Positions 20,471 to 47,270 of a stretch of DNA of 64,000 nt are shown here, piece after piece (position 1 is the first letter of the stretch; each line of letters starts with the position of its first letter). Below the pieces are notes generated by a model. The model worked only from the letters and a program-made list of their open reading frames with translations, was not told the origin of the DNA and did not search any database. This stretch comes from Holophagaceae bacterium (GTDB lineage: Bacteria; Acidobacteriota; Holophagae; Holophagales; Holophagaceae): contig JANYLR010000052.1 of NCBI GenBank assembly GCA_025363715.1, positions 1-64,000 on the forward strand. The letters are read 5' to 3'. The translations under genes were made by a program, and so were the position numbers.

Positions 20471-20492
20471 GGAACACGTACACAATTCGAGA

Positions 20493-21509
20493 ATGAACAT
20501 GAAACCTCTCCTAGAAACCGAAATGATCGACGCGGCCCTGGCACGTTTCGCGGCTCAAACAGGGCTCCGGGCTGTCCGGGAGCCTCTGGAGGGCCGACAT
20601 GGCCCAGACGCGCGGGTCCAGATTATGGATGGCCCTCGCCAATGGACCTTCGACGTGGAGTGCAAAAATCGGGTGGACCGACTCAGCATCCTCCAGGGGG
20701 CCCAGGCCCAAATGGGGAGATTCGAGAAAAAAGGCCTGCTCATCGTTCCCTACTTGGCCCACGGACTGGCCCGGCATTGCCCGGACATGGACATCCCCTT
20801 CCTCGATACCGCCGGAAATGCCTTCCTGAAGGCGGAGGGGTTGTACGTGCTGGTGGCAGGGCAGAAGCCGGACAAGACCTATCTAAGAACCGAAAAGCCC
20901 ATGCGTGCCTTCGACCGGACAGGCCTCCGGGTGGTGTTCACGTTGCTGGCTGCCCCTGACCTGATGCAGGCCACCTACCGCGACCTGGCCAAGGCGGCGG
21001 GAGTGGCGCTTGGAACGGTGGGCTGGATCCTCACCGATCTCCGGGAACATGGATTCCTGGCTGAAATCGAGGGCCACCGCCGCTGGATTGACCTTCATAG
21101 AGCAGTGCAGGCCTGGACAACGAACTACCCCCTTCGCCTGCGCGAACGCCTGCGCGTTCGCCGCTTTGCAGCCAAGGATGACACCTGGTGGGAGAACGCG
21201 AACCCGGGGGCCTTCGACGGCTTCTGGGGAGGGGAGGTGGCTGCGGCCAAGCTACACGGCGATCTGATCCCCAAGACCGTCACGATCTACCTTCCCGAGG
21301 ACCGGAAGGATTTCCTAGCGAAACATCGGCTCCGAGCGGATCCCCAGGGTCCCATCGAAGTGCTGGATGTCTTCTGGGACTTCCCCCCTGCACCGGAAAT
21401 CCCCGAAGGCATCGCGCCCCCGCTGTTGGTCTATACGGACCTCTTGACCATCGGAGATCCTCGTACTCTCGAAGAAGCCCGGAGAATCCATGAGCACTAC
21501 CTGGCTTGA
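20493..21509 (+). CDS. AbiEi-family antitoxin/regulator of a type IV toxin-antitoxin pair
   Basis: A 338-residue protein. The C-terminal two thirds fit the AbiEi family: an HTH segment (TYRDLAKAAGVALGTVGWIL) followed by the RRFAAKDDTWWE...FWGGEVAA region. The N-terminal 130 residues instead look like a restriction-nuclease-type fold with a DVECK segment (D54, E56, K58), whose activity is unknown. AbiEi antitoxins repress the operon and neutralise the AbiEii nucleotidyltransferase. ATG 20493 or 20499 is the likely start; a TTG at 20457 is also in frame but lies within the GTTCAC operator repeats. The toxin gene begins 20 bases before this gene's stop. Confidence 0.77.
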   Translation: MNMKPLLETEMIDAALARFAAQTGLRAVREPLEGRHGPDARVQIMDGPRQWTFDVECKNRVDRLSILQGAQAQMGRFEKKGLLIVPYLAHGLARHCPDMDIPFLDTAGNAFLKAEGLYVLVAGQKPDKTYLRTEKPMRAFDRTGLRVVFTLLAAPDLMQATYRDLAKAAGVALGTVGWILTDLREHGFLAEIEGHRRWIDLHRAVQAWTTNYPLRLRERLRVRRFAAKDDTWWENANPGAFDGFWGGEVAAAKLHGDLIPKTVTIYLPEDRKDFLAKHRLRADPQGPIEVLDVFWDFPPAPEIPEGIAPPLLVYTDLLTIGDPRTLEEARRIHEHYLA

Positions 21510-22363: not shown

Positions 22364-23677
22364 TCAAGGGTGACCGGGTCCCTCACTGGAATCGCTACCT
22401 GCTGTTAGATTCAGCCTCGGCGAAAGCTGGCGGATCGTGTCCGTCACATACTTCTTCGCCAGATGACCGTAGTGCTTGTCCACCATGCGCGTGCCCTTGT
22501 GGCCAAGCTGCTCAGCCACCACGGCCAACGGCACGCCAGCCATGATCAGCGTCGAAGCATAGGTATGCCTCAGTTCGTGGAAGGAGAGTCCGTCTTCGAT
22601 CTCAGCGTCCTTCACCGCCTGGTTCATCGGTCGGACCTGATGGCCGCGCTTCCATTCCATGCACTTCTCCGTCAGGAACATGCGCTCTGACTTCTTCCGG
22701 CCTTCCACGATGTCCTTGAAAAAGGCAATGCCCTCATCGCTGAGCGCAATGTAGCGGCTCTCTTCTGACTTGGTTTCGGAGGTCACGAAAACCTGTCCGG
22801 TGCGCTCATGGAAGTCTCGAACATGCATGAGTCGGGACAACTCGCCGTATCGTGCCCCTGTGAACAGCGCCGCCTGAACAAGTTTTCTGAAATAAGGCGG
22901 GCAGGCGTCCACCAGCGTCTTCTGGTCATCGACCGACAGGAACCGAAGCCGGGCGCTATCGGCCTTCCTGAACGGTTTGACCATCCGCCAAGCCGTATTC
23001 GGACAACTCACTCTCTCCATTTCCAAGGCCTTGTTCAGGGCCGCTTTCAACACGGTCAGGATTCGGTTAGCGGTACTTCTCCGGCGGCGCTTAGCCTCAA
23101 AATCGTCAGGCAATTCCCGGAACCGCTGCTCTGCACTTTTGGCGGTGCGCAGTCTCGCGGGCGAATCTGCGAGATCCTCGAACCACTCCTGGATTTGTGA
23201 TCTCGTGAGCTTCTCGACCAAGTGGTCGCCGAAAGCGGGAAGGATGTGGGCATTGACCACGCGGAGCGTGTCCTTGCTGGCACGACCACCAGCCTTCTCG
23301 TAGCTGCTCATGTAGTCCGCCATGCATTTGCGCACGGAGTACGGCTCTTTCGGAGTCTCTGAGGCTGGAGCAGCGAGTGCCTCTGCCTCGGCCTTGCGCC
23401 AGGCCAAAGCACCTTCCTTCGCCTCGGCGTAGGTCAAGGTCTTGATATGCGCCGGAGTCCCGCTGTCATCGGCAAAGCCGATGTCCTTCTGCTTCCGCGG
23501 TGGCTTGGCCTCGGGGAGGTAGTACTTGGCGTACCAAACCCCACCGCGCTTTCCGCGGCGATACCCAAGGGCGCATCCTTCCTCGATCACCTCCCAGTAG
23601 GGCTCGTGGCGCGGCTTGCAGTTCTTTGCCCGAGCCGTGGGGGTGTCCATCTTGGGGGTGGCTTGCCTCTTGGCCAT
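22364..23677 (-). CDS. int: Tyrosine integrase of the tRNA-Glu island
   Basis: A 437-residue tyrosine recombinase that would integrate and excise the island at tRNA-Glu. Catalytic residues are visible: Arg in GARYGELSRL near 275, HELRH near 366-370, LGHK near 390 and the nucleophile Tyr in VDKHYGHLA near 401. The N-terminal arm-binding region contains RRGKRGGVWYAKYYLPE. A SAM-like core-binding domain follows (about 120-230). The start is ATG 23677 with AGGA upstream; seven extra codons are possible. The gene begins 165 bases from the right att copy, and its promoter region holds the paired TTACTGCAA sites, so the integrase may repress itself. Confidence 0.93.
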   Translation of the reverse strand: MAKRQATPKMDTPTARAKNCKPRHEPYWEVIEEGCALGYRRGKRGGVWYAKYYLPEAKPPRKQKDIGFADDSGTPAHIKTLTYAEAKEGALAWRKAEAEALAAPASETPKEPYSVRKCMADYMSSYEKAGGRASKDTLRVVNAHILPAFGDHLVEKLTRSQIQEWFEDLADSPARLRTAKSAEQRFRELPDDFEAKRRRRSTANRILTVLKAALNKALEMERVSCPNTAWRMVKPFRKADSARLRFLSVDDQKTLVDACPPYFRKLVQAALFTGARYGELSRLMHVRDFHERTGQVFVTSETKSEESRYIALSDEGIAFFKDIVEGRKKSERMFLTEKCMEWKRGHQVRPMNQAVKDAEIEDGLSFHELRHTYASTLIMAGVPLAVVAEQLGHKGTRMVDKHYGHLAKKYVTDTIRQLSPRLNLTAGSDSSEGPGHP

Positions 23678-23711
23678 GGTTGTCCTTTGGGAGACCATCC
23701 TGCCAGAGAAT

Positions 23712-25397: not shown

Positions 25398-25585
25398 CAA
25401 AACCACTGTCAGATGCCATTTGGCGGGATCCGAAGTCGTTGAATCCCTGGAAGCTAGCTTCTGGGATGTGGTTTGTCGGACATGGGTTTGCATTTTTCGA
25501 TTTTAATAATCAGTAAATTATGCTGTTTTTCATTTTGAAATTCAGCGATGATCCCCGACTATGATTGAATTTGAGGAGGACACGA

Positions 25586-26761
25586 ATGGGGACCTCTAGA
25601 AGGAAGTATGAAGAGACGCATCGATGGATGACTTTCCAGGTAGACCTCCAGAGGGCCAATCCAGCTTTGTGGGTGCTGCTCGGGGAATCGGCCTCCAAGA
25701 TCGAGCACATTGCCGGAGTCCCCCTCAAGCCATCCGTCGCGAAGGAACTTCATCAGGTCTATCTGGCCAAAGGCGTGATGGCCACGACTGCGATCGAGGG
25801 CAACACCCTCACCGAGGAGCAGGTTCGAAAGGCAGTGGATGGCGAGTTGGTCCTACCGAAATCACAGGCCTACCTCAAGCAGGAGGTGGACAACATCATC
25901 CAGGAATGCGAATCAATCTGGGGCCGGTCTCAAAGAAACGAGCTCCAGGCGCTGACGCCGATGCGGGTAAGTGAGCTGAACAAAGCGGTCCTTCGAGGCC
26001 TGGAACTAGAGCCAGAAGTCGTTCCTGGCGAGATCCGAGGTCATCGGGTGACCGTCGGGCGCTACCTGGGCGCCCCCCGTGAAGATTGCGACTACCTGTT
26101 AGAAAAGCTCTGCGCATGGCTCCCCCAGCTCGCCGCGACGGATCTGCCGGAACTCCGAATGCCGTTTGCAATCATCCAGGCGACGATCGCACACCTTTAC
26201 ATGGCGTGGATCCACCCCTTCGGTGACGGGAACGGGCGAACAGCCCGCTTGATTGAATATCAACTCATGATCTTGGCTGGCCTGCCAAGCCCGGTAGCTC
26301 ACTTACTCAGCAACCACTACAACCTGACGCGAGCCGACTACTATCGACAGCTCGACAATGCCAGCAAGTCCGGCGGTGATATTGTCCCCTTCTTGATCTA
26401 CGCGGCCCAGGGCCTTGTGGATGGATTGAGGGAGCAGATCGGGACCATCCGTGACCAGCAGCTTGATCTTGCCTGGAGAGACTACTCTCGAGAGATTCTT
26501 GCCGCGAATCCGAGCTCGGTAAACGGCCGACGAGAAGCCGTCCTTAGGGCCCTCACGGAAGCCAGAGATTGGGTAGACATTCAACGAGTGCCAGAGTTGT
26601 CGCCTGCGCTTGCAAAGGCGTTTGCGGGCATGACGACCAAGGCGATTTCAAGAGACTTGAATGCGCTAGTGGAAATGGGATTGACGGAGAAGCAGTCTTC
26701 AAAAATCAGGGCGAAGGTCGAAATCATTTCCGCCTTTTTGCCACCGCGCAGCATGACTTGA
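25586..26761 (+). CDS. Fic-domain protein (probable AMP-transferase)
   Basis: A 391-residue cytoplasmic protein. The Fic motif HPFGDGNGRTAR (about residues 209-220) is complete, so transfer of AMP or a similar group to a target hydroxyl is expected. An inhibitory helix TTAIEGN near residues 66-73 marks it as the class with the autoinhibitory glutamate in the N-terminus. A Fic_N-like region precedes it, and a C-terminal winged-helix segment (about 310-385) resembles those that bind DNA. ATG 25586 has GGAGG upstream; a TTG seven codons earlier is unlikely. It lies between a broken gene pair and a type IIG restriction enzyme, in what looks like a defence-rich segment. Confidence 0.88.
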   Translation: MGTSRRKYEETHRWMTFQVDLQRANPALWVLLGESASKIEHIAGVPLKPSVAKELHQVYLAKGVMATTAIEGNTLTEEQVRKAVDGELVLPKSQAYLKQEVDNIIQECESIWGRSQRNELQALTPMRVSELNKAVLRGLELEPEVVPGEIRGHRVTVGRYLGAPREDCDYLLEKLCAWLPQLAATDLPELRMPFAIIQATIAHLYMAWIHPFGDGNGRTARLIEYQLMILAGLPSPVAHLLSNHYNLTRADYYRQLDNASKSGGDIVPFLIYAAQGLVDGLREQIGTIRDQQLDLAWRDYSREILAANPSSVNGRREAVLRALTEARDWVDIQRVPELSPALAKAFAGMTTKAISRDLNALVEMGLTEKQSSKIRAKVEIISAFLPPRSMT

Positions 26762-26891: not shown

Positions 26892-29800
26892 TTAACCAGC
26901 GACCACGGCATCCAGCGCCCCCGCACGGTAGGCGCGGACATAGCCCTTCACCAGATTGGCGTAAGCCGGATCCTGTTCGTTGAGGATGGGGAAGGTGCCG
27001 AGGATGTGGGCGATGGAATCCTCGTCCCCCGGCGTGTCGAAGCCGTAGGCCAGGAAGAAGAGGGCGTCGAGCTGGGCGCGGAGGGTGCGCCGCCGGGCGG
27101 GGTCCCAGACATAGGGGTCGCCCTCGAAGCCGCAGGCCCGGGCCATGGGCTCCAGGGCCGTGCACGTGTAACTCAGCTCCAATGCGCGGGGAGCGACGAG
27201 GGATTCCCAGGAGCAGCCGTGGAAGGATTCCCCATAGAAGGTAGGGGGCAACACTGGGAGCTGCTCGACTATAAAAAGGCTGAGATTCTGCCCTCCGATC
27301 TTCTGCCGAGTGATGTAATCCAAAATCAGGGTATTCAAGTTCGCCAGCATGCATGTTGTTAATTGAGACGACTGCCTGGTAAGCAGTAAGGAAATACTGT
27401 GGCCTGCGCCAACAATGGGGACTGGCGAAACAATGAAGGTTCGAAAATTTGTGGGTGAGGTCACACTCTTGAACGCAATAGCCCAGGCCGGAGGACCGCC
27501 GGCAAACCGTTCCTGGACCGCGGATTCCGGCACCCAGTATTGAGGCGTGGGGAAGAAGGCTGGATCGACCAACTGGGCGTCGGTGCTGGGTGCGGGTTGG
27601 GCAGGACGCCGGGCATTGGCCAGATTTACCGTGACACCGGCAGCTCGGGGATCGAAGGCTTGCAGCATCTTTCCTTCCAGCAAGGGCAGGTAGCGGCCGT
27701 TCGCGCTTCCCCAGGTGGGCAAGGCCCCCGCCTCCTGCCAGGCCCCCAGGGAATTGAGCTGGATCTGGGTTCTGAACAACCCGCTGTCGTTAGCCATATC
27801 GAACAAACGCTTATAGGTGATCCCCCAGGGGTCATGAGCCGGTGCATGGCGCTTCAGCACGGGCACGCGCTCGTAGATGCGGTGGGTCAGGGCGTGGTCC
27901 TCGGGGCTCCGGAACACGGGGCAGGTGCGGGTGTTGGGGTTCATGCGCCCGAAGTCGTCGGGCTCCAGGTGGATCATGCGCTCGGGAAGCTGGTCGGCTT
28001 GGTGGAGGAAGAAGGCCGCTGGGATGCGCGTGGCACCCCCGCCCGCCCCGGTGAAGCCCACGAGGCTGAACTTGAAACTCCGGTGGACACTGGGGAAGAG
28101 GCCCTGGCGGTTCTCGAAGTCATAGATGAAGGCCACGCGACGCTGGTCCACCATCTGGCCGAAGAAGCGGGCGTTGCCATAGTCAGTGCAGAGACCTGAG
28201 GGCACCACGAACCCGGCCCGGCCAGCCGGTTTCAGCAGACCCAGGGCCCGCTCGGTCATGAGGGCGTACAGGTTCGTATCGCCTCCGCCGAGCAGGGGAT
28301 AGGGGCCATCCGGCGCGTGGCAGTAGGACAGGAGTTCTTCCCGGACGCGTCGGGCGCTCTGAAATGCTTCCCATAACTGTGGTTCGTTCTGTTCGAGGTC
28401 CGCGATGGCGCGACGGCGCTGGGCGGTGGTTTGAAGCCGAGCGATGGCGGGGCGATGCTGGCTGAAGAACTCATTACCATCCAGAGTGATGCGCTCCCAT
28501 GGCGGATTGGTGAGCACCGCATCAAAGCCGTGCTCCCCCTCGGAGAGCAGCACCTCTGGGAAGGCCAGTTCCCAGTGAAAGAAGGTATGGCGCTGGCGGT
28601 CCTCCAGCACATTGAGGGCGCAGAGGCGCAGGTGGTCGGGGAGTTTCCCCACGGTCTCCCGGCCTTCCTGGATCAGCCGACCCAATACCCCAAGGGCGCC
28701 GTCATCCGCCAACAGGGTTGCGGCGTCGTCCACGATGACTGCACTTCGGCCCCGCCCTTCCCGGCGAGTTGGGTTGGAGAAGGCGCGGCTGGCCGTGACG
28801 TCGAGCATCACGCGCATGGCGAAGAGGCCACGTTCGGCCTTCTGATAGAGCACCTGGGATTGCTTCACCTGATCGCGGGTGGCGTCGGACAGGGCCACGA
28901 GCTGGTGGAGTTCATCCAGTACCGTTTCCACGTCGAAGCTTTGGCCCGTGGCGAAAAGGCCCGCGCCCACGGTGGCACCCTGGGCATCCTGGCGAAGGGC
29001 GCGGTAGCCCTCCAGGGTGGCGCCCACGAGGCTATTGCCGCTCTTCAGGTGGTGGTCTAGGAAACTGAGGGGTGCGCCCAGGGTGAAGCTGTCGAGCCAG
29101 AGGCTGAGCTTGGCCAATTCGACGGCCATGGGGTTGAGGTCCACCCCGAAGAGACATCGCTTCATCACGAGGCGCTTAAGCAGGCGGAGGTCGTCCAGGT
29201 GGGGCAGGATGGCCCGCCGGGCCTCCTCGGAAAGCCTCTGGGCCTGGAGGGAATCCAGCAGGGCGTGGCGCTGGGTTTCCAGGCTCTGGAGGATGGGATG
29301 CTCGGCCAGCCGGGGCTGAAGGCGGGGATCTTCCTGGTGCTCGGCGAGCAGGCTCATCAGGCCATCGGTCAGAAAATCCAGGCTGGCCACCAGGAAGTGG
29401 CCGGAGCCCATGGCTGGATCAAGCACTCGGAGATCAAGCAGGGTTTCTTCCACCTGCGCTGCGAGCTGCTTGGTTTCCTGTTCACGGCTCCGCCGGGCCA
29501 CGAGGTCCGTCTCGGCTTCACGGGCCTCGACGCAGGCCAGCCACGCCTCCAGGAGGGGGGTGGCTTTCTGGCGGCGCTCGTCGAGCACCGGCCCGAGCGT
29601 GTCCTGCACCAGCCGGGCCACGAGGCTTTCGTGGGTGTAGTAGGAGGCGGTGGTCCGGCGGACCAGGCTGTCCTGGGAGATCGTGAGGGCTCCGGGCTCC
29701 TGGTGGAGCCGGTATTCCAACAGGCCCTCGTACAGGCTTCCGAGCTGCCGGACGCCCAGGTCGCGGAAGTCCACGCGCACCCGAGCGCCGCCCACGATCA

Positions 29801-31049
29801 CACGGCTGAGGGCGTCCAGGGCGGGGATTAGCTCGGCATCGGGCACCTTCAGGGTGCGGAGCAGCGGGTGGCGCTCGGGGTCGAAGAGGCCGCCGTTGTA
29901 GTAGGGCAGGTCCAGGGCGGGGTCGCCACGATGTACGAGGTCGAAGAGGGATTCCAGGTGGCCCCAGGCCAACGCCCGGCGCCCGGCGGGGATCTGGCCA
30001 TGGTCTACAGCTGCGGCGGCCTGATCCCGGAGCGTTCGCAAACTCACGGCCAGATAGCCTGGCTGGCGCACGGGCAAAAGCTCGCGGTCTTCGGCGTAGA
30101 GGAGGAAGAGCAGCCGATAGAGCAGCACCAGGGTCGCGGCCTCCAGGGCACGCAAGTCTCCCAGGGGGCTTTTCTCCAGGCTGACGGCGCCATCCTGGGT
30201 GGCATCCCGCCACAGGCCCTTGGCCAGGGTGAGGAAGGCGCCGCCTTCTCCGTAAATGGCCTCCTCCAGCGAGGCGCCGACTTCCTGAGCGTATCGTTCC
30301 GCAGCTTCGCGGAGGCGGTCCAGGCTACAGAGTCCGGCGGCATCCCGAAGAAAGGCATTTTGAGCGAAGAACACCGGGAAGTATCGGAACCGCGCCCAGT
30401 CGCCCTCCTGCTCATGAGGCCGCTCGATCAAATCGGGCAGGTCCACCTCGAAGAAGGTCAGCGCACGGCTGGCGGCGCCTCGCCAATACAGACGCCAGTG
30501 CCGTCCATTGCTGAGGATGGCCCAAGTGATCCGGTTGCCAGAATGGATGTGGGCATCGTCCAGGTAACGGTTGATCTGGAGGACAGGATTTTCGCGATCC
30601 GAGCCGGTGCCTGCCCCTTGCAAGGGCCGCTCCCAATACTTTGCTTCCAGGAGCGTCAGGGCGTGGGGGTAGTAGGCTTCAGCCTGCCTCGACTGGAGCG
30701 CCTGGGCGGCACGGCCTTTCGCAGCATCGTCCTCAAATAGGGTATAGTCCGGTTTCCCGGAACGGAGGGCGGTCTCGCGGTGGTAGCTGAAGCCAAGGGC
30801 CTTTAGTACCGGGTCCAGCCACTGGTTGCGGGTGTCCTCCTCGTTGTGGGGCTGGCGGGTCTGAGCGTAGCTCTCCAGGAGGGCCTTCAGTTTCCCGTGC
30901 AGGGCCGCGCACCGCTCGGGCGTCCATGCCTGCCATTCGGGAAACTCGGCGATGCGCGCCTGGAGGAGGTGATCCGAGAAGAGCCCTTGATTCAGGAATG
31001 AATCGAACAGGCCGAGGTTGGACTGATGAGGATCAGGGATCTGGGCCAT
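26892..31049 (-). CDS. Type IIG (Eco57I-like) restriction-modification enzyme
   Basis: A 1385-residue single chain. The N-terminus contains a PD-(D/E)xK-type nuclease region (SGKPDYTLF followed by LTLLEAKYW, residues about 95-145). A large helical linker follows. The methyltransferase domain has SAM motif [10 protein letters not shown] near 545, [18 protein letters not shown], and catalytic NPPW near 845. The C-terminal 500 residues would recognise DNA. Such enzymes cut and methylate without separate subunits. The ATG at 31049 has only a weak GAG site; a start farther upstream gives an unlikely N-terminus. BREX PglX proteins look similar, but no BREX partner genes are present. Confidence 0.83.
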
Positions 31050-31268
31050 GTGGTAATTCACTCGGATGGGAATGACCCCGGATGTCGAGGTCCTCTGGTC
31101 AAGCCTTCTGGCTGTATAAGCAGATCTGCTCCTCAATCCTATCCGGCTAGCCCCAGCCACCCCACCACTTCATCTACATTGGCTAAATCGTCCTCCCAGC
31201 AGAATTCTCCGGGGCGATGGCCGAAACGAACTCAATCAGAGTTGATAATCGAACCCGGAGGAACCTCG

Positions 31269-32712: not shown

Positions 32713-35418
32713 TCATTGCCGCAGCTTTGTCAGCGGTGAGGTGGCGCTGCCGCCGAAGCTGGAGGTGACGGTCACGGTGGTAGGTTGGGGAACACCGTTC
32801 AGGGTCAGGGTGTAGATGCCGCCGCCGGTGGTGGTCAGCTGGGCCCCGGCGTTGTTCGGGCCGTAGCCCAGGAGCGTGAGGACCGGCGTACCGTCGAGGA
32901 TGCTCGAGGTGGCGGTGACGATCAGCCGCTGCTGACCGGTGCGGTACTCCGCGCCGGTGATGGTCACCACGTCGGCCTGATCGGCGACGGTCACCGTGAC
33001 CAGGGCGGCGGTGGAACTGAGCAGCCCGTTGCTGACGGTGAGAGTGAAGCCGAGTACCCCGGGGGTGGCGGGGGCCGTGAAGCTGGGGGCCACTGTATTG
33101 GCGCCGGTCAGGATCACTGCGGGGCCGGACACCTGGAGCCAGGCGTAGGTGAGGGGCAGCCCGTTGGGATCGGTGCTCAGGCTGCCGTCCAGGTGCACGA
33201 GGTCCCGGATCTTGACCCGCTGGTTCAAGCCGGCCTTGGCCAACGGCGGGAGGGCGGGACTGACGGTGATGGTCACCGAGGCGGTGGCCGAGAGCTGGGC
33301 GTTGTTGGTGACGGCGAGCTGGAAGGTGAGCGCCACGGGGTCGCCGGGCGCCACCACGGGCGCGCGGAAGGTGGGCGTGGTGGCCGTGGCATCGGACAGG
33401 GTGACCGGAGCCAGTCCGCCCATTCCGGTCTGGACCCAGCTGAGGGCGAGGGGGCTGGGCGGGAAGTTTCGATCCGCACTGGCGGTGGCATTGAGCTGGA
33501 CCACCGCGCCGGAGGCCACGGTCTGGTCGGCACCGGCATTGGCGATGGGCGGCACCGGGGGCGGCGGGACGTTCACGCCGACATTGACGCCGGCCGCCGC
33601 CGAGGCGATGCCCGCAGTGTTGGTGACCACCAGCTGGAAGGACAGCACCGCGTTGAGGGTGCCCAGTGGCAGGGGGGGCGCGGTGAAGGTGGGGTTGGCC
33701 ACGGTGGCGCTGTTGAGCACCACGGCGGGACCGGCGGTCTGGGTCCAGGCGAAGGCGAGGGCGAGGCCCGCTGCATCCGAGCTGCCGGTGCCGTTCAAGG
33801 TGACGGGCACGCCGCTGAAGGTGACCTGGTTCAGACCGGCGTTGGCGGTGGGCGGCAGCGGCGCGGGCGGAGGCGGCGGCTGGGGTGAGCCGCACTGGGG
33901 TACCACCTGCACGGCTCCAGGCCAGGGGGTCAGCTGGCCGACTCTGAGGCCGCCGAAGTCGCCGGTGCCGTTGACCAGGAAGGGGAAATCCACCAGGTTG
34001 AGCGGCACGGGCGGGCCGCCGACTCCCAGGTTTTCCGGGAACAGGAAGTCGAAGATCGGGGCGTGGTACTGGCCAGTGATCAGGCCGTTGCCGGAGATGA
34101 CCGGGGCCGTCAGGGTGTAGGCGCCGCGCAGGACCGCGCGCAGCTCCCGGGTGGCGGGCAGGAAGACGCCAGCCGCGGGCATGGCCACCACCTTGCTGGG
34201 TGGCCGGAAGCGCCACCGTCCCAGGACTGCGCCGCCGGCGAGGGGGCCCTGATCGACGTCGATGGTGCCCCAGGGGCGATCCGAGGTGATGGAGCTGCAG
34301 GCATCCACGTCGATGCCGTAGAAGTCCACCACTCGGCTGGGATCTGTGCAGAAGCCCTCGAACCGGGTCCGGGTGGTGGCTTCCTGGGCGATGCCGGAAA
34401 TGGGCGCGCCACCTACGCCCAGCAGCATGACGTCCACGGCCACGTAGGCCGGGTTGCTGCCGGGGAAGGTGTAGATGCCCACGTTGGCGATGAGAGTGTG
34501 GGCCGCCACGTAGGTGGCCCCGCTGCCCTCGGCGGGCATGGGGCCGGCGCTGGGCTGGAGGCCGTCCTTCATCAGGCAGCCGGAGTAGGTGACGTAGTCG
34601 CCCACTTCGAAGGGGGCGGCCAGGAAGGCGTTGGGGGTGATGCCGGGGCCGGGCCTGGGCATGGTGAACACGGTCTGGAAGAAGCCGGTGGCCAAGTTCT
34701 TGGGCCGGTTCGTCTGCGGGAGCAGCGGGTCATCCTGCACGGCCGGGTCCGAGTGGGGAAGCCCCATGGGATAGCCGGTCTCGCTGCGGATGGTGGGATT
34801 GTCGGTATCGATGGTGAAGCGGGGATCCAGGGTGTAGGCGGGGGCGAAGCGGCCGGAGGGATCGTTGATCCTGAGCCGGGTGCCGGTGGTGGGGTCGCCG
34901 ATGACCCCGCCCACCCGCAGCTCGCCGTTGGCGTAGTCCAGATAGTTGATGAACCCCTGCCCGCTATTGAGAGATTGCTGGGACAGGAACACCAGGCCGG
35001 CGATGTAGCGGTCGCCGATGCGATTGCCCTGCACGTGGACTTCATAGGTGGTCAGGGGGGCGGGGCTGTCGTTCATGGCCAGGCCGGTCTGCAGAGGCCC
35101 GTAGGGGGCCGGGGCCAGGGCGAAGACCTGCTGCCAGGTCAGGGCCAGGGCCGGCATCTGCAGGATGGTGTTGCGGGGAATGATGATGGTGGTGCCATTG
35201 ACCGACAGGGTGCCACCGGCCAGGGCATCGCCCGGGGCATCCAGAGTCGCGCTTTCGATGAAGCCGATCATGTCGAAGGGCGAGCCCACGGCTTGAAGCG
35301 GCAGCTGCGCCTGGAGGCAGCATCCCCCCACCGCGGCCAGGAGGGTGAGCACGAGCCTGAAGGCCTTCCGCAGTGCGACTGGGCCAGCCGCTTGGACGAA
35401 TGGGACCAGGTGCGTCAT
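32713..35418 (-). CDS. Secreted PKD-repeat protein, paralogue A (divergent from the oxidase operon)
   Basis: A 901-residue exported protein. The hydrophobic signal is FRLVLTLLAAVGGCCLQAQ, near residues 20-38. The N-terminal 450 residues form a conserved unnamed module starting QLPLQAVGSPFD. After a Pro-rich linker there are three PKD/K319L-like beta-sandwich repeats, each with TANAG-start and FAW-QTAGP-type cores, then a C-terminal beta domain. It is highly similar over its whole length to the protein at 37327-39987. PKD repeats usually mediate adhesion or complex assembly outside the cell. AAAGGAGG precedes the ATG. It diverges from the oxidase operon across a 425-base AT-rich region, so shared regulation is likely. 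Confidence 0.75.
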   Translation of the reverse strand: MTHLVPFVQAAGPVALRKAFRLVLTLLAAVGGCCLQAQLPLQAVGSPFDMIGFIESATLDAPGDALAGGTLSVNGTTIIIPRNTILQMPALALTWQQVFALAPAPYGPLQTGLAMNDSPAPLTTYEVHVQGNRIGDRYIAGLVFLSQQSLNSGQGFINYLDYANGELRVGGVIGDPTTGTRLRINDPSGRFAPAYTLDPRFTIDTDNPTIRSETGYPMGLPHSDPAVQDDPLLPQTNRPKNLATGFFQTVFTMPRPGPGITPNAFLAAPFEVGDYVTYSGCLMKDGLQPSAGPMPAEGSGATYVAAHTLIANVGIYTFPGSNPAYVAVDVMLLGVGGAPISGIAQEATTRTRFEGFCTDPSRVVDFYGIDVDACSSITSDRPWGTIDVDQGPLAGGAVLGRWRFRPPSKVVAMPAAGVFLPATRELRAVLRGAYTLTAPVISGNGLITGQYHAPIFDFLFPENLGVGGPPVPLNLVDFPFLVNGTGDFGGLRVGQLTPWPGAVQVVPQCGSPQPPPPPAPLPPTANAGLNQVTFSGVPVTLNGTGSSDAAGLALAFAWTQTAGPAVVLNSATVANPTFTAPPLPLGTLNAVLSFQLVVTNTAGIASAAAGVNVGVNVPPPPVPPIANAGADQTVASGAVVQLNATASADRNFPPSPLALSWVQTGMGGLAPVTLSDATATTPTFRAPVVAPGDPVALTFQLAVTNNAQLSATASVTITVSPALPPLAKAGLNQRVKIRDLVHLDGSLSTDPNGLPLTYAWLQVSGPAVILTGANTVAPSFTAPATPGVLGFTLTVSNGLLSSTAALVTVTVADQADVVTITGAEYRTGQQRLIVTATSSILDGTPVLTLLGYGPNNAGAQLTTTGGGIYTLTLNGVPQPTTVTVTSSFGGSATSPLTKLRQ

Positions 35419-35843
35419 GACCCCCCTCCTTTCCGAAATCGAGCATGAGTTAGTGTCTCGTTTTTGAAAAACACTACAAGATTGAATTTGAATTGTAAAT
35501 TACTAATGAGTTCTTTGTTTTTCACGCTTTCAATGGCTATAGCTACATAGAAACCCCCATAAAAATCGATGGAGAAGAGGACTTGACACAGAGAATGAGA
35601 CCAATAAACTATAAATTAATCGCTCGAAAGACATCAATGAACAAATGTTAATTTTGTTAACAATATTAACTTCGCTTAATAAATGACTTGGAGAAAGTTG
35701 TAGGTTCAATAGCCCTATTTCAATTGATGAATACAACAATGATATTGACCACCAACTTGTATTGATAAAACAACACTTAACGATCATTGGGCAATCAAGC
35801 GGTTTTACCCCAAGTTGGGCCTTCAAATGCGAGGAATTTCATC
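35419..35843. promoter_or_regulatory. AT-rich divergent promoter region
   Basis: These 425 bases separate paralogue A from the oxidase operon and are strikingly AT-rich in a GC-rich neighbourhood. TTGACA at 35583-35588 with TATAAA at 35610-35615 is a possible promoter with long spacing. TGTTAATTTTGTTAAC and CAATATTAAC near 35646-35670 form GTTAA repeats that could be regulator sites. No coding frame is credible. Confidence 0.5.
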
Positions 35844-37286
35844 ATGAATGCCATCGCCTCCAACTTCCCAAGATCAGCAGCCCTCCTGGTTGTCCTTCTG
35901 GCGTTGACCGCCTGTGGCGGCGGTGGCGGCACCGCCACCCCAGCCCCCACTCCCGTCCCCACCCCAGCGCCCGCCCCCGGGCCCACGACGAGTCGCGGCA
36001 TGATCACCGCCCCGGGCAGCGTGCTCGTCAACGGGGTCGAATACACCACCGCGGGCACCACCACCATCCTGGTGGATGGCAACCCGGGCACCCTGGCCGA
36101 CCTGACCGCAGGCCGGGTGGTCAAGGTCAGGGGCACCAGCGATGACCTGACCAAGAAGGGCAGCGCATCCCAGATCGAGATCCGGGATGCGCTGCAGGGG
36201 CCCATCGACAGCGTCGACAGCCTCAACAAGACCCTGACCGTGCTGGGGCAGGTCGTCCACCTCGAGGACAACGTGACCCACCTGAACGACGATACGGCCA
36301 AGGTCTTTGACGATGCGGGCTACCTCCCCGGGGATCTGGTCGAGGTGCACGGCTTCGCTGATAGCGCCACGGGCCTGCGCGCCACCCGGGTGGACCGGAT
36401 CGCCTCCGGCCCGCTGGAACTGAAGGGCTTCATCTCCAGCCTTAGCGGCACCTCGTTCAGCCTCAGCCTCACCAAGGGCGGCGCCGAAGTACTCGTCGTG
36501 AACTTCCTGGCCGGCACGCTGCCGGCCGGGGTGGTCAACGGAGCCCGGGTTCAGGTCCAGGCCTTGGCCCCGCCGGTGGCCGGTGTCATCACCGCCACGG
36601 CCGTGAAGCTGGAGGACCCCCTCGGCGCCCTCGGCGAGAAGGTCGCGGTGGAAGGCTATGTGGCCAACGGGGTCCTGGCCGATTTCGTGCTCGACGGGCA
36701 GGAGGTGACCACCAATGCGGCGACCCTGTTCGAAGGCGGCGTGGACTCGGATTTCGACGTGGGGGTGCGCCTGGAGGCGGAAGGCTCGGTGGACGCCGGC
36801 GGCGCCATCGTCGCCACCCGGATCCGGTTCGTGAGCGACATCAGGCTCGAGGGGGATGTCACGGGCTTCATCGGTGGTCTGGATGTGCTGGGCCTGACGG
36901 TGGGACTGGATGCCTTCACCCGCATCGACACGCCCATCGACTTGACGCTCAACAAGCATGTCCTGGTCAGCGCCGTACTGGATCGCAACGGAGCCCTGAA
37001 GGCCACCCGGGTCGCGGTGCTGCCCTTGTCCAGCAAGGCCTCCTTCCAGGGCCCGGTGAGCACGGCCGATGCCACCGCCGGCAGCTTGACCATCCTGGGC
37101 CAGACCTTCTCATCCAATAGCGTCACCCAATGGCGGGCCAGTTCCACGGCCAGTGAGGTGGCGACCACCAAGGCCGCCTTCTTTGCCCAGGTGATCCCCA
37201 AGGCCACCGTGGTGAAGATCCGCTGGAATCATTTCGGGCTGCTGACCGACCCGGCGACGGAAGCCGAAATCGAGCTGGGCCATTGA
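35844..37286 (+). CDS. DUF5666-like repeat lipoprotein, first gene of the oxidase operon
   Basis: A 480-residue lipoprotein. Signal peptide and lipobox LTAC (C24) are followed by a Gly-run and a Thr/Pro-rich linker. The mature part is a series of about five small beta-barrel repeats of the DUF5666 type (for example VSTADATAGSLTILGQTF and IDSVDSLNKTLTVLGQVV), ending in NHFGLLTDP. The family's role is unknown; a ligand-binding or scaffolding part at the outer membrane is likely. GAGGAA lies upstream of ATG 35844. The next gene starts 40 bases after its stop, and the six following genes run the same way with minimal gaps. Confidence 0.78.
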   Translation: MNAIASNFPRSAALLVVLLALTACGGGGGTATPAPTPVPTPAPAPGPTTSRGMITAPGSVLVNGVEYTTAGTTTILVDGNPGTLADLTAGRVVKVRGTSDDLTKKGSASQIEIRDALQGPIDSVDSLNKTLTVLGQVVHLEDNVTHLNDDTAKVFDDAGYLPGDLVEVHGFADSATGLRATRVDRIASGPLELKGFISSLSGTSFSLSLTKGGAEVLVVNFLAGTLPAGVVNGARVQVQALAPPVAGVITATAVKLEDPLGALGEKVAVEGYVANGVLADFVLDGQEVTTNAATLFEGGVDSDFDVGVRLEAEGSVDAGGAIVATRIRFVSDIRLEGDVTGFIGGLDVLGLTVGLDAFTRIDTPIDLTLNKHVLVSAVLDRNGALKATRVAVLPLSSKASFQGPVSTADATAGSLTILGQTFSSNSVTQWRASSTASEVATTKAAFFAQVIPKATVVKIRWNHFGLLTDPATEAEIELGH

Positions 37287-37326
37287 ACCCTTTCCTCCCT
37301 GAACCCGTACTCGAAGGAGTGCCCCC

Positions 37327-39987
37327 ATGACGATGCTGGTCCCGCGCAGGATGGTCAAGATCGCGCTCGCCCTCCTCGCCCTCGTTGGGGGAGGCCCGGC
37401 CTGGGCCCAGCTGCCGCTCCAGCCGGCGGGCTCACCCTTCGACATGACCGGTTTCCTGGAAAGCGCCACCCTGGATGCGCCCGGCGACCTCCTGGCCGGT
37501 GGCACCCTGAAAGTCAACGGCACCTCCATCATCGTCCCCCGCAACACCATCCTGCAGATGCCGGCCCTGGCCCTGACCTGGCAGCAGGTCTTCGCCCTGG
37601 CCCCGGCCCCCTACGGGCCCCTGCAGACCGGCCTGGCCAAGCACGACAGCCCGGCCCCCTTGAGCACCTATGAAGTCCATGTGCAGGGCAACCGCATCGG
37701 CAATCGCCACATCGCCGGCCTGGTATTCCTGTCGCAGCTGGGCCTCAACAGCGGCCAGGGCTTCATCAATTTCATGGACTACGCCAACGGCGAGCTGCGG
37801 GTGGGCGGGGTCATCGGCGACCCCACCACCGGCACCCGGCTCAGGATTAACGATCCCTCCGGCCGCTTCGCCCCCGCCTACACCCTGGATCCCCGCTTCA
37901 CCATCGATACCGACAATCCCACCATCCGCAGCGCCACCGGCTACCCCATGGGGTTTCCCCACTTTGATCCGGCCGTGCAGGATGACCCGCTGATCCCGCA
38001 GGGGAACCGGCCCAAGGATGCGCTGACCGGGCTCTACCTGACCAGCTTCACCATGCCCAAACCCGGCTCGGGGATCACCCCCAACGCCTTCCTGGCCGCC
38101 CCGTTCCAGGTGGGCGACCTGATCACTTATTCCGGCTGCCTGATGAAGGATGGCCCCCAGCCCAGCGCCGGGCCCCTTCCCGCCGCAGGCCGGGCGGCCA
38201 CCTACGTGGCGGCCCACACCCTCATCGCCAATGTGGGCATCTACACCTTCCCCGGCAGCAACCCGGCCTACGTGGCCGTGGACGTCATGCTGCTGGGCGT
38301 GGGCGGCATTCCCATCAACGGCATCCCCCAGGAAGCCACTACCCGGACCCGGTTCGAAGGCTTCTGCACGGACCCCAGCCGGGTGGTGGATCTCTTCGGC
38401 ATCGACGTGGACGCCTGCAGCAGCAACACTGGCGACCGTTCCTGGGGCACCAGCGACGTGGATCAAGGCCCTGCCGCCGGCGGCGCCGTCCTGGGCCGGT
38501 GGCGCTTCCGGCCGCCCAGCAAGGTGGCAGCCATGCCTGCGACTGGCGTCTTCCTGCCTGCTACGCGTGAGATGCGCGCGGTCCTGCGCGGCGCCTACAC
38601 CGCGGCGGCCCCGGTCATCTCCGGCAACGGCCTGATCACCGGCCAGTACCACGCCCCGATCTTCGAGTTCCTGTTCCCCGAGAACCTGGGCGTAGGCAAT
38701 CCCCCGGTACCGCTCAATTTCAACGAATTCCCCTTCCTGGCCAATGGCACCGGCGGCTTCAACGGCGTCAACGTGGGCCAGCTCAATCCGTTCCCGGCGG
38801 CAGTGGTGCCCATCCCCACCTGCAACCCGGTGGTGACGCCCGGTCCCCCCACCGCCAATGCCGGCGCGGCCCAGACGGTGGCCGGGGGCGCCCCGGTCAC
38901 CCTGAATGGCTCGGCCAGCACCGATCCCAGTGCCCTGGCCCTGGCCTTCGCCTGGACCCAGACCGCGGGCCCAGCGGTGGCCCTCAACAGCGCCACCGTC
39001 GCCAACCCCACCTTTACCGCTCCCGTCGTGGCGGCCGGCGCCCCCAGCACCCTGCTGTCCTTCCAGCTGGTGGTCACCAACACCGCGGGCCTGGCTTCGA
39101 CCGCCGCCTTCGCCCAGGTCACGGTCACCCCCCCGGCGCCACCAGCGCCGCCCATCGCCAATGCCGGCACCGCCCAGTCGGTGGCCTCCGGCGCCATCGT
39201 CCAGCTCAACGGCACCGCCACCTCGGACCCCAACATCCCGGCCAGGCCCCTCACCTTCGCCTGGGTGCAGACCGCCTTCGCCGGGCTGCCGCCGGTGACC
39301 CTGTCCGGCACCACCACGGCCACCCCCACCTTCCGCGCCCCCGTCGTTCCGGGCCAGGCGCCCGCGGTGCTCACCTTCCGGCTCACCGCCAGCAATAACC
39401 TGCCCCTGTCCGCCTCGGCCACGGTGACCATCACGGTCAAGCCCGCAACCGCCCCCGTGGCCAACGCCGGCCCCAACCAGGGGGTCCAGCTCCCGGCGCT
39501 GGTGCACCTGGACGGCAGCCTCAGCTCCGATCCCAGCGGGCTGCCCCTCACCTATGCCTGGACCCAGGTTTCCGGTCCCGCCGTGGCGCTCACCGGCCCC
39601 ACCACCGTGAGTCCCACCTTCACCACGCCCCCGAAACCGGGGCTGCTGGGCTTCACCCTCACCGTGAACAACGGCCTGCTCTCGTCCACGCCCAGCCTGG
39701 TCACCGTCACGGTGAACGCCGGTGTCAACGATGCCGTGATCATCACCCTCGCCGAGTACCGGCTCGCCCAGCAGCGCCTCACCATCAACGCCACCTCGAA
39801 CATCGCTGATGGCTCGCCAGTCCTCACGCTGCAGGGGTATGGCCCCAACAAGGCCGGCGTGCCGATGACCTACACCGGCGGTGGCATCTATACCGTGATC
39901 CTCACCGGCGTGGCGCAACCCGACTCGGTAATCGTGACCTCCAGCTTCGGGGGCACCGCGACCTCCGGCCTCACCCGACTCCGCTAA
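37327..39987 (+). CDS. Secreted PKD-repeat protein, paralogue B
   Basis: An 886-residue protein with signal peptide (VKIALALLALVGGGPAWA, cleavage near 27) and the same layout as paralogue A: an unnamed 450-residue N-terminal module, three PKD/K319L-like repeats, and a C-terminal beta domain. Blocks such as GIYTFPGSNPAYVAVDVMLL are identical in both. AAGGAG lies nine bases upstream of ATG 37327. It is second in the operon, 28 bases before the multicopper oxidase gene, so it is probably a structural partner of the oxidase. An open frame of 900 codons on the opposite strand is a composition artefact. Confidence 0.77.
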   Translation: MTMLVPRRMVKIALALLALVGGGPAWAQLPLQPAGSPFDMTGFLESATLDAPGDLLAGGTLKVNGTSIIVPRNTILQMPALALTWQQVFALAPAPYGPLQTGLAKHDSPAPLSTYEVHVQGNRIGNRHIAGLVFLSQLGLNSGQGFINFMDYANGELRVGGVIGDPTTGTRLRINDPSGRFAPAYTLDPRFTIDTDNPTIRSATGYPMGFPHFDPAVQDDPLIPQGNRPKDALTGLYLTSFTMPKPGSGITPNAFLAAPFQVGDLITYSGCLMKDGPQPSAGPLPAAGRAATYVAAHTLIANVGIYTFPGSNPAYVAVDVMLLGVGGIPINGIPQEATTRTRFEGFCTDPSRVVDLFGIDVDACSSNTGDRSWGTSDVDQGPAAGGAVLGRWRFRPPSKVAAMPATGVFLPATREMRAVLRGAYTAAAPVISGNGLITGQYHAPIFEFLFPENLGVGNPPVPLNFNEFPFLANGTGGFNGVNVGQLNPFPAAVVPIPTCNPVVTPGPPTANAGAAQTVAGGAPVTLNGSASTDPSALALAFAWTQTAGPAVALNSATVANPTFTAPVVAAGAPSTLLSFQLVVTNTAGLASTAAFAQVTVTPPAPPAPPIANAGTAQSVASGAIVQLNGTATSDPNIPARPLTFAWVQTAFAGLPPVTLSGTTTATPTFRAPVVPGQAPAVLTFRLTASNNLPLSASATVTITVKPATAPVANAGPNQGVQLPALVHLDGSLSSDPSGLPLTYAWTQVSGPAVALTGPTTVSPTFTTPPKPGLLGFTLTVNNGLLSSTPSLVTVTVNAGVNDAVIITLAEYRLAQQRLTINATSNIADGSPVLTLQGYGPNKAGVPMTYTGGGIYTVILTGVAQPDSVIVTSSFGGTATSGLTRLR

Positions 39988-40015: not shown

Positions 40016-43428
<3,413 letters not shown>

Positions 43429-43432
<4 letters not shown>

Positions 43433-44112
43433 TCAAACCAGGTCTTGCCCTCGTCGTCCCGTGCCTCACCGCCCTGGCCTGCGCACCGGTCTGGGCCTCG
43501 GTGGGCTGCGACCTCAACAATCCCGACCGGGACGTGGCGCGGCTCTTCCCGGGCTCCACGGGGTTCAAGACCGTCGAAGTGGACATCCAGAAGCTGGGCG
43601 GCGATCCGCTGCTGGCCAGGGTCGAATCCCGGATGCGGGACAAGCTGCACGGCCTCTACGAATCCATCGACGTGCCCTACACCATCTATGTCATCTACCG
43701 GAACAAGGACATCATCGGCTACATCCACGGCGTCAACCAGAAGGGGCGCTTCGGCGGGATCCAGATCTTCCTGGTCCTCAGCCTCGAGCTTCGGATCAAG
43801 ACCTTGTACATCCAGAAAATGTCCGGCACCTATGCCGGGAGCTTCCGCCAGGCGGAGTTCGAAGGGCAGTTCACCGGGCTGACCCTGGGGGATTTCGACC
43901 GATTCGATGTGGCCACCGGACAGGTCACCGGAAAACTGGCCGGGATCAAGACTCCCGAGCCCGGGGCAGAGTTCGATTTCAGCCGCACCCTGCGCGGCAT
44001 CAAGAAGAACCTAATCCTGGTGACCGAGTTTTTCACCATCTCGCCGGATCTGGCTACCAGGTTGTTGACCTCCCCGATCAAGAAACCTTCCCTGCCTGGA
44101 GGTGGGCAATGA
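43429..44112 (+). CDS. Small exported protein of the oxidase operon, unknown function
   Basis: A 227-residue protein with a signal peptide (LALVVPCLTALACAPVWAS). The mature part shows GYIHGVNQKGRFGGIQIFL and a following IKTLYIQKMSGTYAGSFR segment, reminiscent of FMN-binding (RnfG/NosR-like) beta-folds, but the flavin-attachment Thr motif is not clear. Its ATG overlaps the oxidase stop (ATGA), and its stop overlaps the next start (ATGA), so it is made together with both. Position between two redox proteins suggests a cofactor-handling or electron-transfer accessory; this is inference. I have no confident family name. Confidence 0.7.
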
Positions 44113-46730
44113 CGAACCCCTTACGTTCGTGGCAGCGCTACGCACTTGGTCTGTTGGCCATCGCCCTGGTGGGCTATGGCCCGCCAGGTCCCGCACAAGG
44201 GGTGCCGACACCGCCGCCAGGCCTGTTCCAGATGCCCCTCAGCCAAATCCCCGTGCCCGAGCCGCCCAACCTGTACCAGTTCGTCAAGGACAAGGCGGCC
44301 GCCATCCGGCTGGGCAAGGCTTTGTTCTGGGACGTGCAGGCCGGCAGCGACGGCCAGGTGGCCTGCGCCACCTGTCATTTCGACGCGGGCGTGGACAAGC
44401 GGCGCAAGAACACCCTCAACCCGGGCACCCGGAGCAACGACCAGAGCTTTCAGGTGCGCGGGCCCAACCAGACCCTGCTGGATTCCGATTTCCCGTTCCA
44501 TGTGCGGCAGAACCCTGATCTCCAGCGTTCGGCCGTGCTCCGGGACAGCAACGACGTGGTGGGCTCCCAGGGGGTCCGGAAGGCCACCTTCCTGGCCACC
44601 GTCAGCGGCTCGGCCCTGGACGCCACCCGCTCCGTCGCCGATCCGGTCTTCCAGGACGCCGGGGTGAATGTTCGCCAGGTCACGGCCCGCAACGCCCCCA
44701 GCGTGATCAACGCGATCTTCAACTTCGAGAATTTCTGGGATGGCCGCGCCCACAACATTTTTAACGGCAACAACCCCTTCGGCCCCTTGGACACCAGCGC
44801 CGGCGTCTGGTTCCAGAGCGGCACCCCAGGGAGCCCGGTGCTGGTGAAGGCACCGGTCATCATCGAGGCCGCCAGCCTGGCCTCCCAGGCGGTGGGCCCT
44901 GTTCTGGACAGCGTTGAGATGTCGGCCGCGGGCCGGACCTTCCCGGATCTTGCGCGGAAGCTGCTGTCCCTCACCCCCCTGGGCAAACAGGCCGTCCACC
45001 CCGGCGACAGTGTGCTGGGCCCCCTATCCCGGGCCGTGCTGCTGCCGGGCGGCCAGCTCACCGGGGCCAATGGCCTCAACCGTTCGTACGGCACCATGAT
45101 CAAGGCCGCCTTCCTGGACTCCCTGACCTCCACCAGCCTGACGGCTCCGGACGGCTCCACGCAGCTGGAGGCCAACTTCTCCCTGTTCTGGGGCCTGGCC
45201 ATCCAGTTGTACGAGGCCACCCTGGTGTCCGACCAGACGCCCTTCGACCGCTTCCTGGGGGGAGATTCCACCGCCATCACTCAGCTGCAGGGGGATGGCA
45301 TGAACCTCTTTTTCGGCGGCACCGGCAAATGCAACACCTGCCATGCCGGCACCGAGCTCACCGCCGCCTCGGCCACCGCCAACGCCTTCCTCACCAACCT
45401 CAGCAACCGGGTGCTGGACCAGATGGTGGCCGGCGGGCGGGACACCATCTACGACAACGGCTTCAACAGCACCGGCCTGCGCCCCACGACGGAGGACTCC
45501 GGCCGGGGTGGAAACTCCCCCTTCACCAATCCGGCCACCGGCCAGTTCCTCCCCCTGGATTACGCCTCCCTGGCCGAGATCCAGGCCCTGGGCCAGTTGC
45601 CCTTCCCCTCCGTGGTGCTGCCGCCACAACTGCCGGCCACCTTCCCCGTGGCCAACCGCGGGGCCTTCAAGGTGCCGGGGCTCCGCAACGTGGAGCTCAC
45701 GGCCCCCTATTTCCATGACGGCAGCGTGCTGACCCTGGAAGATGTGGTGCACTTCTATGTCCGCGGGGGCAACTTCCCGACCGTGGCCCAGAGCCCGAGC
45801 CTGGATTCGGCCATCTCCGAGATCGGCGGCATGCAGAACGCCCCCGACAAGGTGGCGGCCATGGTGGCCTTCCTGCGCTCCCTCACCGACGAGCGGGTGC
45901 GGAACCATTCCGCGCCCTTCGACCATCCGGAAATTCTCATCCCCGAGGGCGAGCCGGAGGTCCTGACCCTGATCCCGGCCCGGGACGCCACCGGCACGCC
46001 GGCCTCGTCCATCGCCCTCACCCTGGACACGCTTCCCGCCATCACCAACAGGCCCAGCCTCCAGCTCAGCGGCACCCGGCAGACCGGGGCAGTGATCCAG
46101 ATCCAGGTCAACGGCGGAGCCACCATCCAGGCTGCCACGCCCACTGCGGCCTCCTGGAACGCCACCGTCTCCGGACTGGTGGAAGGCGTCAACAGCCTCA
46201 CCGCCACGGCCACCCTCCCCAACAGCGTTCCGGTGACCCTGAACGCCACCATCACGCTGGATTCCACTGCCCCCACCCTGAACCTGGATCCCGTGCCCAC
46301 CCCCATCCAGGGCTCCACCCTGACCCTGTCCGGCACCGTGGAAGGCGGACTGACTCCCTTGGTCACCGTCAGCACCTCGGCTGTGCCCGCCACCACCACC
46401 GTGAACGGCATCCTTTGGAGCGCCCAACTCACCGGGCTGGTGCCCGGGATCAACAATGTCACCGTGCTCGCCATCGATCCAGCCGGCAACGTGGCCAGCA
46501 GGACCGCCGCCATCACCGTCGTGGTGGCCGACGGAATCCTGAGCGGAGGTCCCACCATCGCCACCGCCGATGCGCTCAAGGCCCTGCGGCTGTCCCTGGG
46601 TGTGCTGCCCCCCACCCTGAACGACCTGGTGCACGGGGATGTGATGCCTGCGGGCGCGCCCGACGGCATCATCGACGTGGCCGACGCTCTGCGGATTCTG
46701 CGCAAGGCGGCCGGACTCGTCACCTTCTGA
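44109..46730 (+). CDS. Di-heme MauG/cytochrome c peroxidase-like protein with Ig-like and dockerin-like C-terminus
   Basis: An 873-residue exported protein. Two c-heme sites, CATCH (near residue 87) and CNTCH (near 407), lie in a MauG/bacterial cytochrome c peroxidase fold; the family's LRNVELTAPYFHDGS segment is near 525. Two Ig-like beta domains follow (about 620-790). The end is a dockerin-like pair, ADALKALRLSLGV and GDVMPAGAPDGIIDVADALR. Peroxidases of this type use two hemes to reduce peroxide or oxidise a protein substrate. ATG 44109 overlaps the previous stop and has GGAGG upstream; the longer frame before it is a shadow. The dockerin probably docks on the cohesin-like lipoprotein encoded next. 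Confidence 0.88.
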   Translation: MTNPLRSWQRYALGLLAIALVGYGPPGPAQGVPTPPPGLFQMPLSQIPVPEPPNLYQFVKDKAAAIRLGKALFWDVQAGSDGQVACATCHFDAGVDKRRKNTLNPGTRSNDQSFQVRGPNQTLLDSDFPFHVRQNPDLQRSAVLRDSNDVVGSQGVRKATFLATVSGSALDATRSVADPVFQDAGVNVRQVTARNAPSVINAIFNFENFWDGRAHNIFNGNNPFGPLDTSAGVWFQSGTPGSPVLVKAPVIIEAASLASQAVGPVLDSVEMSAAGRTFPDLARKLLSLTPLGKQAVHPGDSVLGPLSRAVLLPGGQLTGANGLNRSYGTMIKAAFLDSLTSTSLTAPDGSTQLEANFSLFWGLAIQLYEATLVSDQTPFDRFLGGDSTAITQLQGDGMNLFFGGTGKCNTCHAGTELTAASATANAFLTNLSNRVLDQMVAGGRDTIYDNGFNSTGLRPTTEDSGRGGNSPFTNPATGQFLPLDYASLAEIQALGQLPFPSVVLPPQLPATFPVANRGAFKVPGLRNVELTAPYFHDGSVLTLEDVVHFYVRGGNFPTVAQSPSLDSAISEIGGMQNAPDKVAAMVAFLRSLTDERVRNHSAPFDHPEILIPEGEPEVLTLIPARDATGTPASSIALTLDTLPAITNRPSLQLSGTRQTGAVIQIQVNGGATIQAATPTAASWNATVSGLVEGVNSLTATATLPNSVPVTLNATITLDSTAPTLNLDPVPTPIQGSTLTLSGTVEGGLTPLVTVSTSAVPATTTVNGILWSAQLTGLVPGINNVTVLAIDPAGNVASRTAAITVVVADGILSGGPTIATADALKALRLSLGVLPPTLNDLVHGDVMPAGAPDGIIDVADALRILRKAAGLVTF

Positions 46731-46766
46731 GCCAATCCAACCACTGCCCACAGCTTAGGTGCGCCC

Positions 46767-47270
46767 ATGAAAATGATGAATGTGATGAGCCTGGTTCTGG
46801 CCGCCGCAGTGGCCCTGGTCATGGGTTGCGGCGGGGGTTCCAGTGGCAGTCCGGCTCCGGCGGGACCCGCGCCCGCGTCCACCTTCACCCTCCGGCCGAG
46901 CCTCCAGGGGCCCCTGGCCTCCGGCGCCAGCATCGGCAGCATCGACCTGACGCTCAGCCTTCCGGCCGGGACGACTGTGCGGGCCGATGGCAACGGCCAG
47001 GCCCTGGACGGGGTGGTTACCGCGTCCGGCGGCGGCGCCGGTTCCCTGGTGGCGGCCCGGTACACCCCGGCCGATTCGAGCCAGCGGGCCAAGCTCCGCA
47101 TCGTGCTGATCAACGCCAGGGGATTCACCACAGGCGAGTTCGCGACCGTGCAATGCGACCTGACCCCCGGCAGCGCCCCGGCCATCGGCGACTTCACCTG
47201 GGCCGCGCTGGCGGTCACCGACGTGGACAGCAAGGCCATCCGGGGGCTTGCTGCGGTTCTGAGCCAGTAG
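46767..47270 (+). CDS. Cohesin-like lipoprotein
   Basis: A 167-residue lipoprotein (lipobox VMGC, C21) with a short Gly/Ser/Pro linker and one beta-sandwich domain. The segment INARGFTTGEFATVQCDL, and the overall length, match cohesin-like domains found on small lipoproteins of Geobacter-type bacteria. It begins 36 bases after the dockerin-bearing cytochrome gene and is last in the operon. It would anchor the cytochrome at the outer membrane surface. The cohesin call rests on pattern similarity, not an alignment. Confidence 0.68.
   Translation: MKMMNVMSLVLAAAVALVMGCGGGSSGSPAPAGPAPASTFTLRPSLQGPLASGASIGSIDLTLSLPAGTTVRADGNGQALDGVVTASGGGAGSLVAARYTPADSSQRAKLRIVLINARGFTTGEFATVQCDLTPGSAPAIGDFTWAALAVTDVDSKAIRGLAAVLSQ

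Follow-up and report, generated by a model that had tools for sequence, protein, structure and literature searches.

The window (the whole 64,000-nucleotide stretch of DNA that was analyzed) encodes two large PKD-repeat proteins, referred to here as scaffold paralogues A and B, that are arranged head-to-head, pointing away from each other, with an AT-rich spacer and a DUF5666-like gene between them and genes for a multicopper oxidase and a di-haem protein downstream of B. The features of this locus are as follows.

32713 to 35418, minus strand: scaffold paralogue A, an ORF of 901 aa
33910 to 35360, minus strand: inverted-repeat arm 1 (N-terminal domain of A)
35419 to 35843: AT-rich divergent intergenic region, 35% GC over 425 nt
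35844 to 37286, plus strand: DUF5666 lipoprotein-like gene (PF18914) with a lipobox-like leader
37327 to 39987, plus strand: scaffold paralogue B, an ORF of 886 aa
37355 to 38805, plus strand: inverted-repeat arm 2 (N-terminal domain of B), 86% complementary to arm 1
40016 to 43432, plus strand: multicopper oxidase with a 114-nt TSP3-like calcium-repeat array
43429 to 44112, plus strand: 227-aa secreted-looking protein without a family
44109 to 46730, plus strand: di-haem CCP/MauG-like protein with Ig-like modules, a dockerin-like tail, and two CxxCH motifs
46767 to 47270, plus strand: 167-aa lipoprotein-like gene, the last of the presumed operon

The positions and strands given for the two proteins in the earlier note correspond to genuine ORFs, and the AT-rich region and the DUF5666-like gene were correctly placed between them. 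Protein A consists of a signal peptide-like leader, an N-terminal domain of ∼480 aa, three PKD (K319L-like) domains, and a short C-terminal domain that ends in ...GGSATSPLTKLRQ. B has the same layout with a shorter leader, and the ending GG.ATS.LT.LRQ is conserved in both. The PKD domains score above the Pfam gathering threshold (PF22352, 120.7 and 123.1 bits) in three stretches of each protein. Judged by eye, both leaders resemble signal peptides, and A and B are probably secreted. The N-terminal domain, whose sequence is highly conserved across Acidobacteriota, matched no Pfam family, and its profile gave zero matches among the PDB sequences. In an AlphaFold model based on 10 sequences, the PKD and C-terminal part (residues 504 to 886) is confident, while residues 1 to 503, comprising the N-terminal domain, have pLDDT values below 50 and are unusable. 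The term "scaffold" is a working name taken from the domain layout; because the N-terminal domain has no recognizable family and its model failed, a scaffold role is a guess.

The mechanically called ORF of the DUF5666 gene opens at position 35787; however, the ATG at 35844 yields the lipobox-like leader and is probably the actual start. Gene B begins 40 nt downstream of the DUF5666 gene and ends 28 nt upstream of the multicopper oxidase gene; such spacing suggests that the six genes from the DUF5666 gene to the 167-aa lipoprotein gene form one operon. Judging from the layout, A would be transcribed divergently from the same AT-rich spacer. The spacer carries three sigma-70-like matches (one on the plus and two on the minus strand, versus 0.7 expected in the scanned stretch) and only short, imperfect inverted repeats.

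The multicopper oxidase, like other members of the bilirubin oxidase/CotA/CueO superfamily, combines a Cu-oxidase domain (PF07731, 36.9 bits) with all four copper-ligand motifs, HEH at residue 541, HDH at 645, HPVHIH at 1004, and HCHNTMHEDHSM at 1063, so that the pattern of three HxH motifs and HCHx3Hx4M is intact. Its N terminus is encoded by six 114-nt tandem repeats (positions 40055 to 40919) with TSP3-like DGDG calcium motifs. The di-haem protein (PF03150, 83.8 bits) contains the CxxCH motifs of the cytochrome c peroxidase/MauG family, CATCH at residue 86 and CNTCH at residue 408. Unlike the known members of these families, both proteins carry additional fused repeat modules, and they fall well below the equivalog cutoffs; for the NCBIfam MbnH and MauG equivalogs, the di-haem protein scored 114.8 of the required 362.85 bits and 82.1 of 443.85 bits. 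The tail of the di-haem protein is dockerin-like (DGIIDVADALRILRKAAGL), and the lipoprotein encoded by the next gene looks cohesin-like by eye (positions 46479 to 47270). Searches of Pfam, NCBIfam, and PDB sequences gave no support for a cohesin/dockerin pairing of these two proteins, which is mentioned here as a lead.

Genes A and B form a genuine inverted repeat that consists of three consecutive ungapped arms. The repeat search found the first arm pair (33910 to 35360 and 37355 to 38805) to be 1,451 nt long with 86% identity, followed by the second (32987 to 33813 and 38887 to 39713; 827 nt, 76%) and the third (32738 to 32974 and 39729 to 39965; 237 nt, 75%). A gapped blastn alignment showed 81.1% identity over 2,660 nt (E = 0.0), far beyond chance, and the proteins are 76% identical. 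The longest exact DNA blocks are 85, 83, 73, and 68 nt, with nine blocks of at least 25 nt. The description of the two genes in the earlier note as near-duplicates with long identical blocks is thus partly justified: they are real homologues with identity that is not low throughout, but they are not near-identical, and the blocks are long only at the protein level or as DNA stretches of less than 90 nt. The homology starts at positions 35360 and 37355, inside both coding sequences, and is confined to the coding regions; the AT-rich spacer and the DUF5666 gene lie outside the repeat. Duplication of a shared promoter was also considered and was ruled out, as the homology begins within the coding regions.

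The source genome (Holophagaceae/Geothrix; 121 contigs) encodes a third scaffold copy, C, on a different contig (G000:C83), followed by a PKD lipoprotein. Six congeners, Holophagaceae/Geothrix metagenome-assembled genomes that were found by name, have a single scaffold copy, only of the C type, beside the same PKD lipoprotein. In the tree of the N-terminal domain, which included outgroups, A and B are sisters with support of 100/99; in the tree of the PKD half, they group together weakly (82/85). A and B are therefore more closely related to one another than to orthologues found elsewhere, and the inverted duplication proposed in the earlier note is upheld. The A/B locus was absent from all relatives searched, as was the di-haem (MauG) gene from the other relatives in which it was sought. 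Two genomes (G016 and G014) have matching flanking genes, in a neighborhood that is also partly rearranged, but lack the adjoining block from A to ∼49 kb, so the oxidase gene block is accessory. Of the 7 congeners with a scaffold gene or a multicopper oxidase gene, 5 have both (Fisher's test, p ∼1e-4 over 36 genomes, uncorrected for kinship).

The similarity of A and B is distributed unevenly. Among the codons whose amino acid is invariant across eight copies, A and B have identical codons at 66 of 78 positions in the codon range 90 to 270 versus 29 of 60 in the range 350 to 510 (Fisher's test, p = 7e-6, with both ranges picked after the profile had been seen), and no matching step in synonymous codon identity was found in the A-C and B-C comparisons. 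The A-B dS value rises from 0.21 in codons 90 to 270 to 0.53 in the PKD half; in the latter, A is as far from B as from a congener copy (also 0.53). Permutation tests for a conversion tract gave moderate support (p = 0.005 with windows and p = 0.058 with runs; 28 pairs examined), and the orthologue pair of C and its G036 counterpart shows a comparable mosaic, which cannot be intragenomic. Gene conversion between the heads of A and B is the simplest reading; faster drift of the PKD stalks could be behind part of the contrast between heads and stalks. In the C/G036 pair (L006, 8369 to 11110, and L021, 1808 to 4510), 26 identical synonymous-variable codons follow one another without a break in the PKD region, at alignment codons 613 to 699, hinting at recombination between species.

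On balance, the probable origin of the pair is that one secreted scaffold gene was duplicated in inverted orientation within an accessory extracellular-oxidation block that comprises the DUF5666 lipoprotein, scaffold B, the multicopper oxidase, the 227-aa protein, the di-haem peroxidase-like protein, and the lipoprotein. A would be transcribed divergently from the AT-rich spacer that it shares with this block, and the heads would have been partly homogenized by gene conversion. Both proteins would be exported and would position or display the copper and haem enzymes extracellularly; a common job would fall to the conserved N-terminal head, and the PKD stalk would set the reach or the partner. 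Occasional intrachromosomal gene conversion, arising without crossover from the pairing that could otherwise produce an inversion, would keep the heads alike. A plain old inverted duplication with no ongoing recombination would explain the similar heads solely by stronger purifying selection than that on the PKD stalks, in agreement with head dN values being below the stalk dN values in most comparisons and with the conservation of the head protein across Acidobacteriota. However, the excess identity is seen at synonymous sites and is specific for the A-B pair, so that this account appears unlikely. Horizontal acquisition of the whole cluster with both scaffolds, the duplication having occurred in another lineage, is compatible with the inverted-duplication reading of what the pair is. 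It would fit the absence of the block from the matching neighborhoods in G016 and G014, the restriction of the MauG gene to this genome among the relatives searched, the presence of a related kit on a Paraburkholderia megaplasmid (see below), and the integrase and transfer genes found ∼9 to 17 kb upstream, among the following features.

15492 to 17387: TraG/TrwB coupling protein
20457 to 21509: AbiEi antitoxin
22364 to 23698: tyrosine integrase
25565 to 26761: Fic
26892 to 31160: Eco57I/MmeI-like protein

However, loss of the block from the other genomes is equally possible, and the closest matches to A and B are the Holophagaceae copies (70 to 73% identity to those of the congeners, with 62 to 64% for B versus the Thermoanaerobaculia copies), so any donor must have been a near relative; acquisition of the ready-made pair is accordingly a possibility of some weight but a somewhat doubtful one. 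These upstream genes belong to a defense/mobile region (positions 66 to 31160) that lies beside tRNA-Glu (66 to 140) and also carries type I restriction genes (ResIII/HSDR, N6_Mtase with Methylase_S, and an AAA protein).

The earlier note also envisaged an inversion-prone locus, at which recombination could flip the intervening promoter and first gene. As an invertible switch, this would mean that homologous recombination between A and B reversibly flips the spacer and the DUF5666 gene, swaps the first halves of the scaffolds, and connects DUF5666 to the oxidase operon or disconnects it. The geometry is right for such an invertible switch: the copies are inverted, and a simulated crossover in the 85-nt exact block yields two chimeric genes, both intact and in frame, of 892 and 897 codons with the stop. 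The idea, although unsupported here, is not far-fetched, since inversion at the Ureaplasma mba/UU172 element, also formed by inverted paralogous surface-protein genes, generates chimeric paralogues (PMC3047005). However, that element has specific inverted repeats and a demonstrated inversion (PMC3047005), whereas A and B share long but diverged homology, and no second orientation was seen, the locus being absent from every other genome searched. Neither long near-identical repeats nor recombinase sites were found at the A/B locus, with 81% overall identity and 14 to 26% divergence outside exact blocks of at most 85 nt. There is no recombinase gene between or next to the copies, the nearest being the tyrosine integrase ∼9 kb away, among transfer and defense genes. 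After the simulated inversion, the spacer lies between the DUF5666 gene, now on the minus strand, and a gene combining the A head with the B stalk that leads into the multicopper oxidase gene. The oxidase would therefore stay downstream of the spacer, via the former A promoter; the inversion would swap the scaffold heads and uncouple DUF5666 but would not silence the operon. As both ORFs stay in frame and the same AT-rich region remains ahead of the oxidase genes, the flip would not be an on/off switch, and the invertible-switch reading appears highly improbable. More generally, a flip between inverted paralogues that flank a promoter would exchange protein heads and need not turn the promoter away from its operon. 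The suggestion that A and B serve as alternative scaffolds is plausible; pairs of scaffold paralogues are found repeatedly in related clusters.

As a genome rearrangement, the A/B pair is ordinary; the more interesting lead is the conserved oxidase/di-haem/scaffold kit. The scaffold family, which has no Pfam name, is found in different phyla together with a multicopper oxidase and a di-haem peroxidase-like enzyme, in several cases as two copies. The megaplasmid of Paraburkholderia largidicola (AP028202) encodes, in a row (BEI72158 to BEI72152), a scaffold, a MauG-like protein, another scaffold, a multicopper oxidase, an SCO1-cytochrome c protein, and a DUF5666 protein, all annotated as hypothetical. 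This cluster shares with the window two paralogous PKD scaffolds, a CCP_MauG protein, a multicopper oxidase, and DUF5666. However, its scaffolds, which are sisters (99/96) and ∼50% identical to B, are in tandem and transcribed in the same direction, in contrast to the head-to-head pair in the window, and its SCO1-cytochrome c gene is absent from the window cluster. In an acidobacterium (G318), two scaffold genes lie head-to-head with a MauG-like gene, and two more scaffolds are encoded elsewhere; in a member of Terriglobia (L032), multicopper oxidase, SCO1-like, and MauG genes are flanked by two scaffolds, of which one is truncated by the contig end; and members of Thermoanaerobaculia (L029 and L030) have a scaffold plus MauG. 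Because the Paraburkholderia scaffolds are sisters, as are A and B, and the divergent G318 scaffolds are not, scaffold pairs seem to have originated on more than one occasion.

These gene arrangements suggest that the scaffold, multicopper oxidase, and di-haem protein could constitute an uncharacterized extracellular redox machine, with oxidation of metals, humic substances, or polymers as candidate functions. A bolder and rather speculative proposal is that Acidobacteriota and Paraburkholderia share an undescribed extracellular oxidation system, in which the multicopper oxidase and the MauG-like di-haem protein would work on two paralogous PKD scaffolds that carry a new N-terminal domain; separate lineages would have re-created the pair by duplication because two different scaffolds would be required. 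Among the papers searched, none brought together multicopper oxidase, PKD domain, and cytochrome c peroxidase, nor any three of multicopper oxidase, MauG, PKD domain, and DUF5666. A second type of multicopper oxidase (∼55 to 61% identical), followed by an SCO1-cytochrome c-like gene, is present in the source genome and in congeners (L052, 5660 to 9400, and L053, 7388 to 12675), with DUF5666 upstream in G023.
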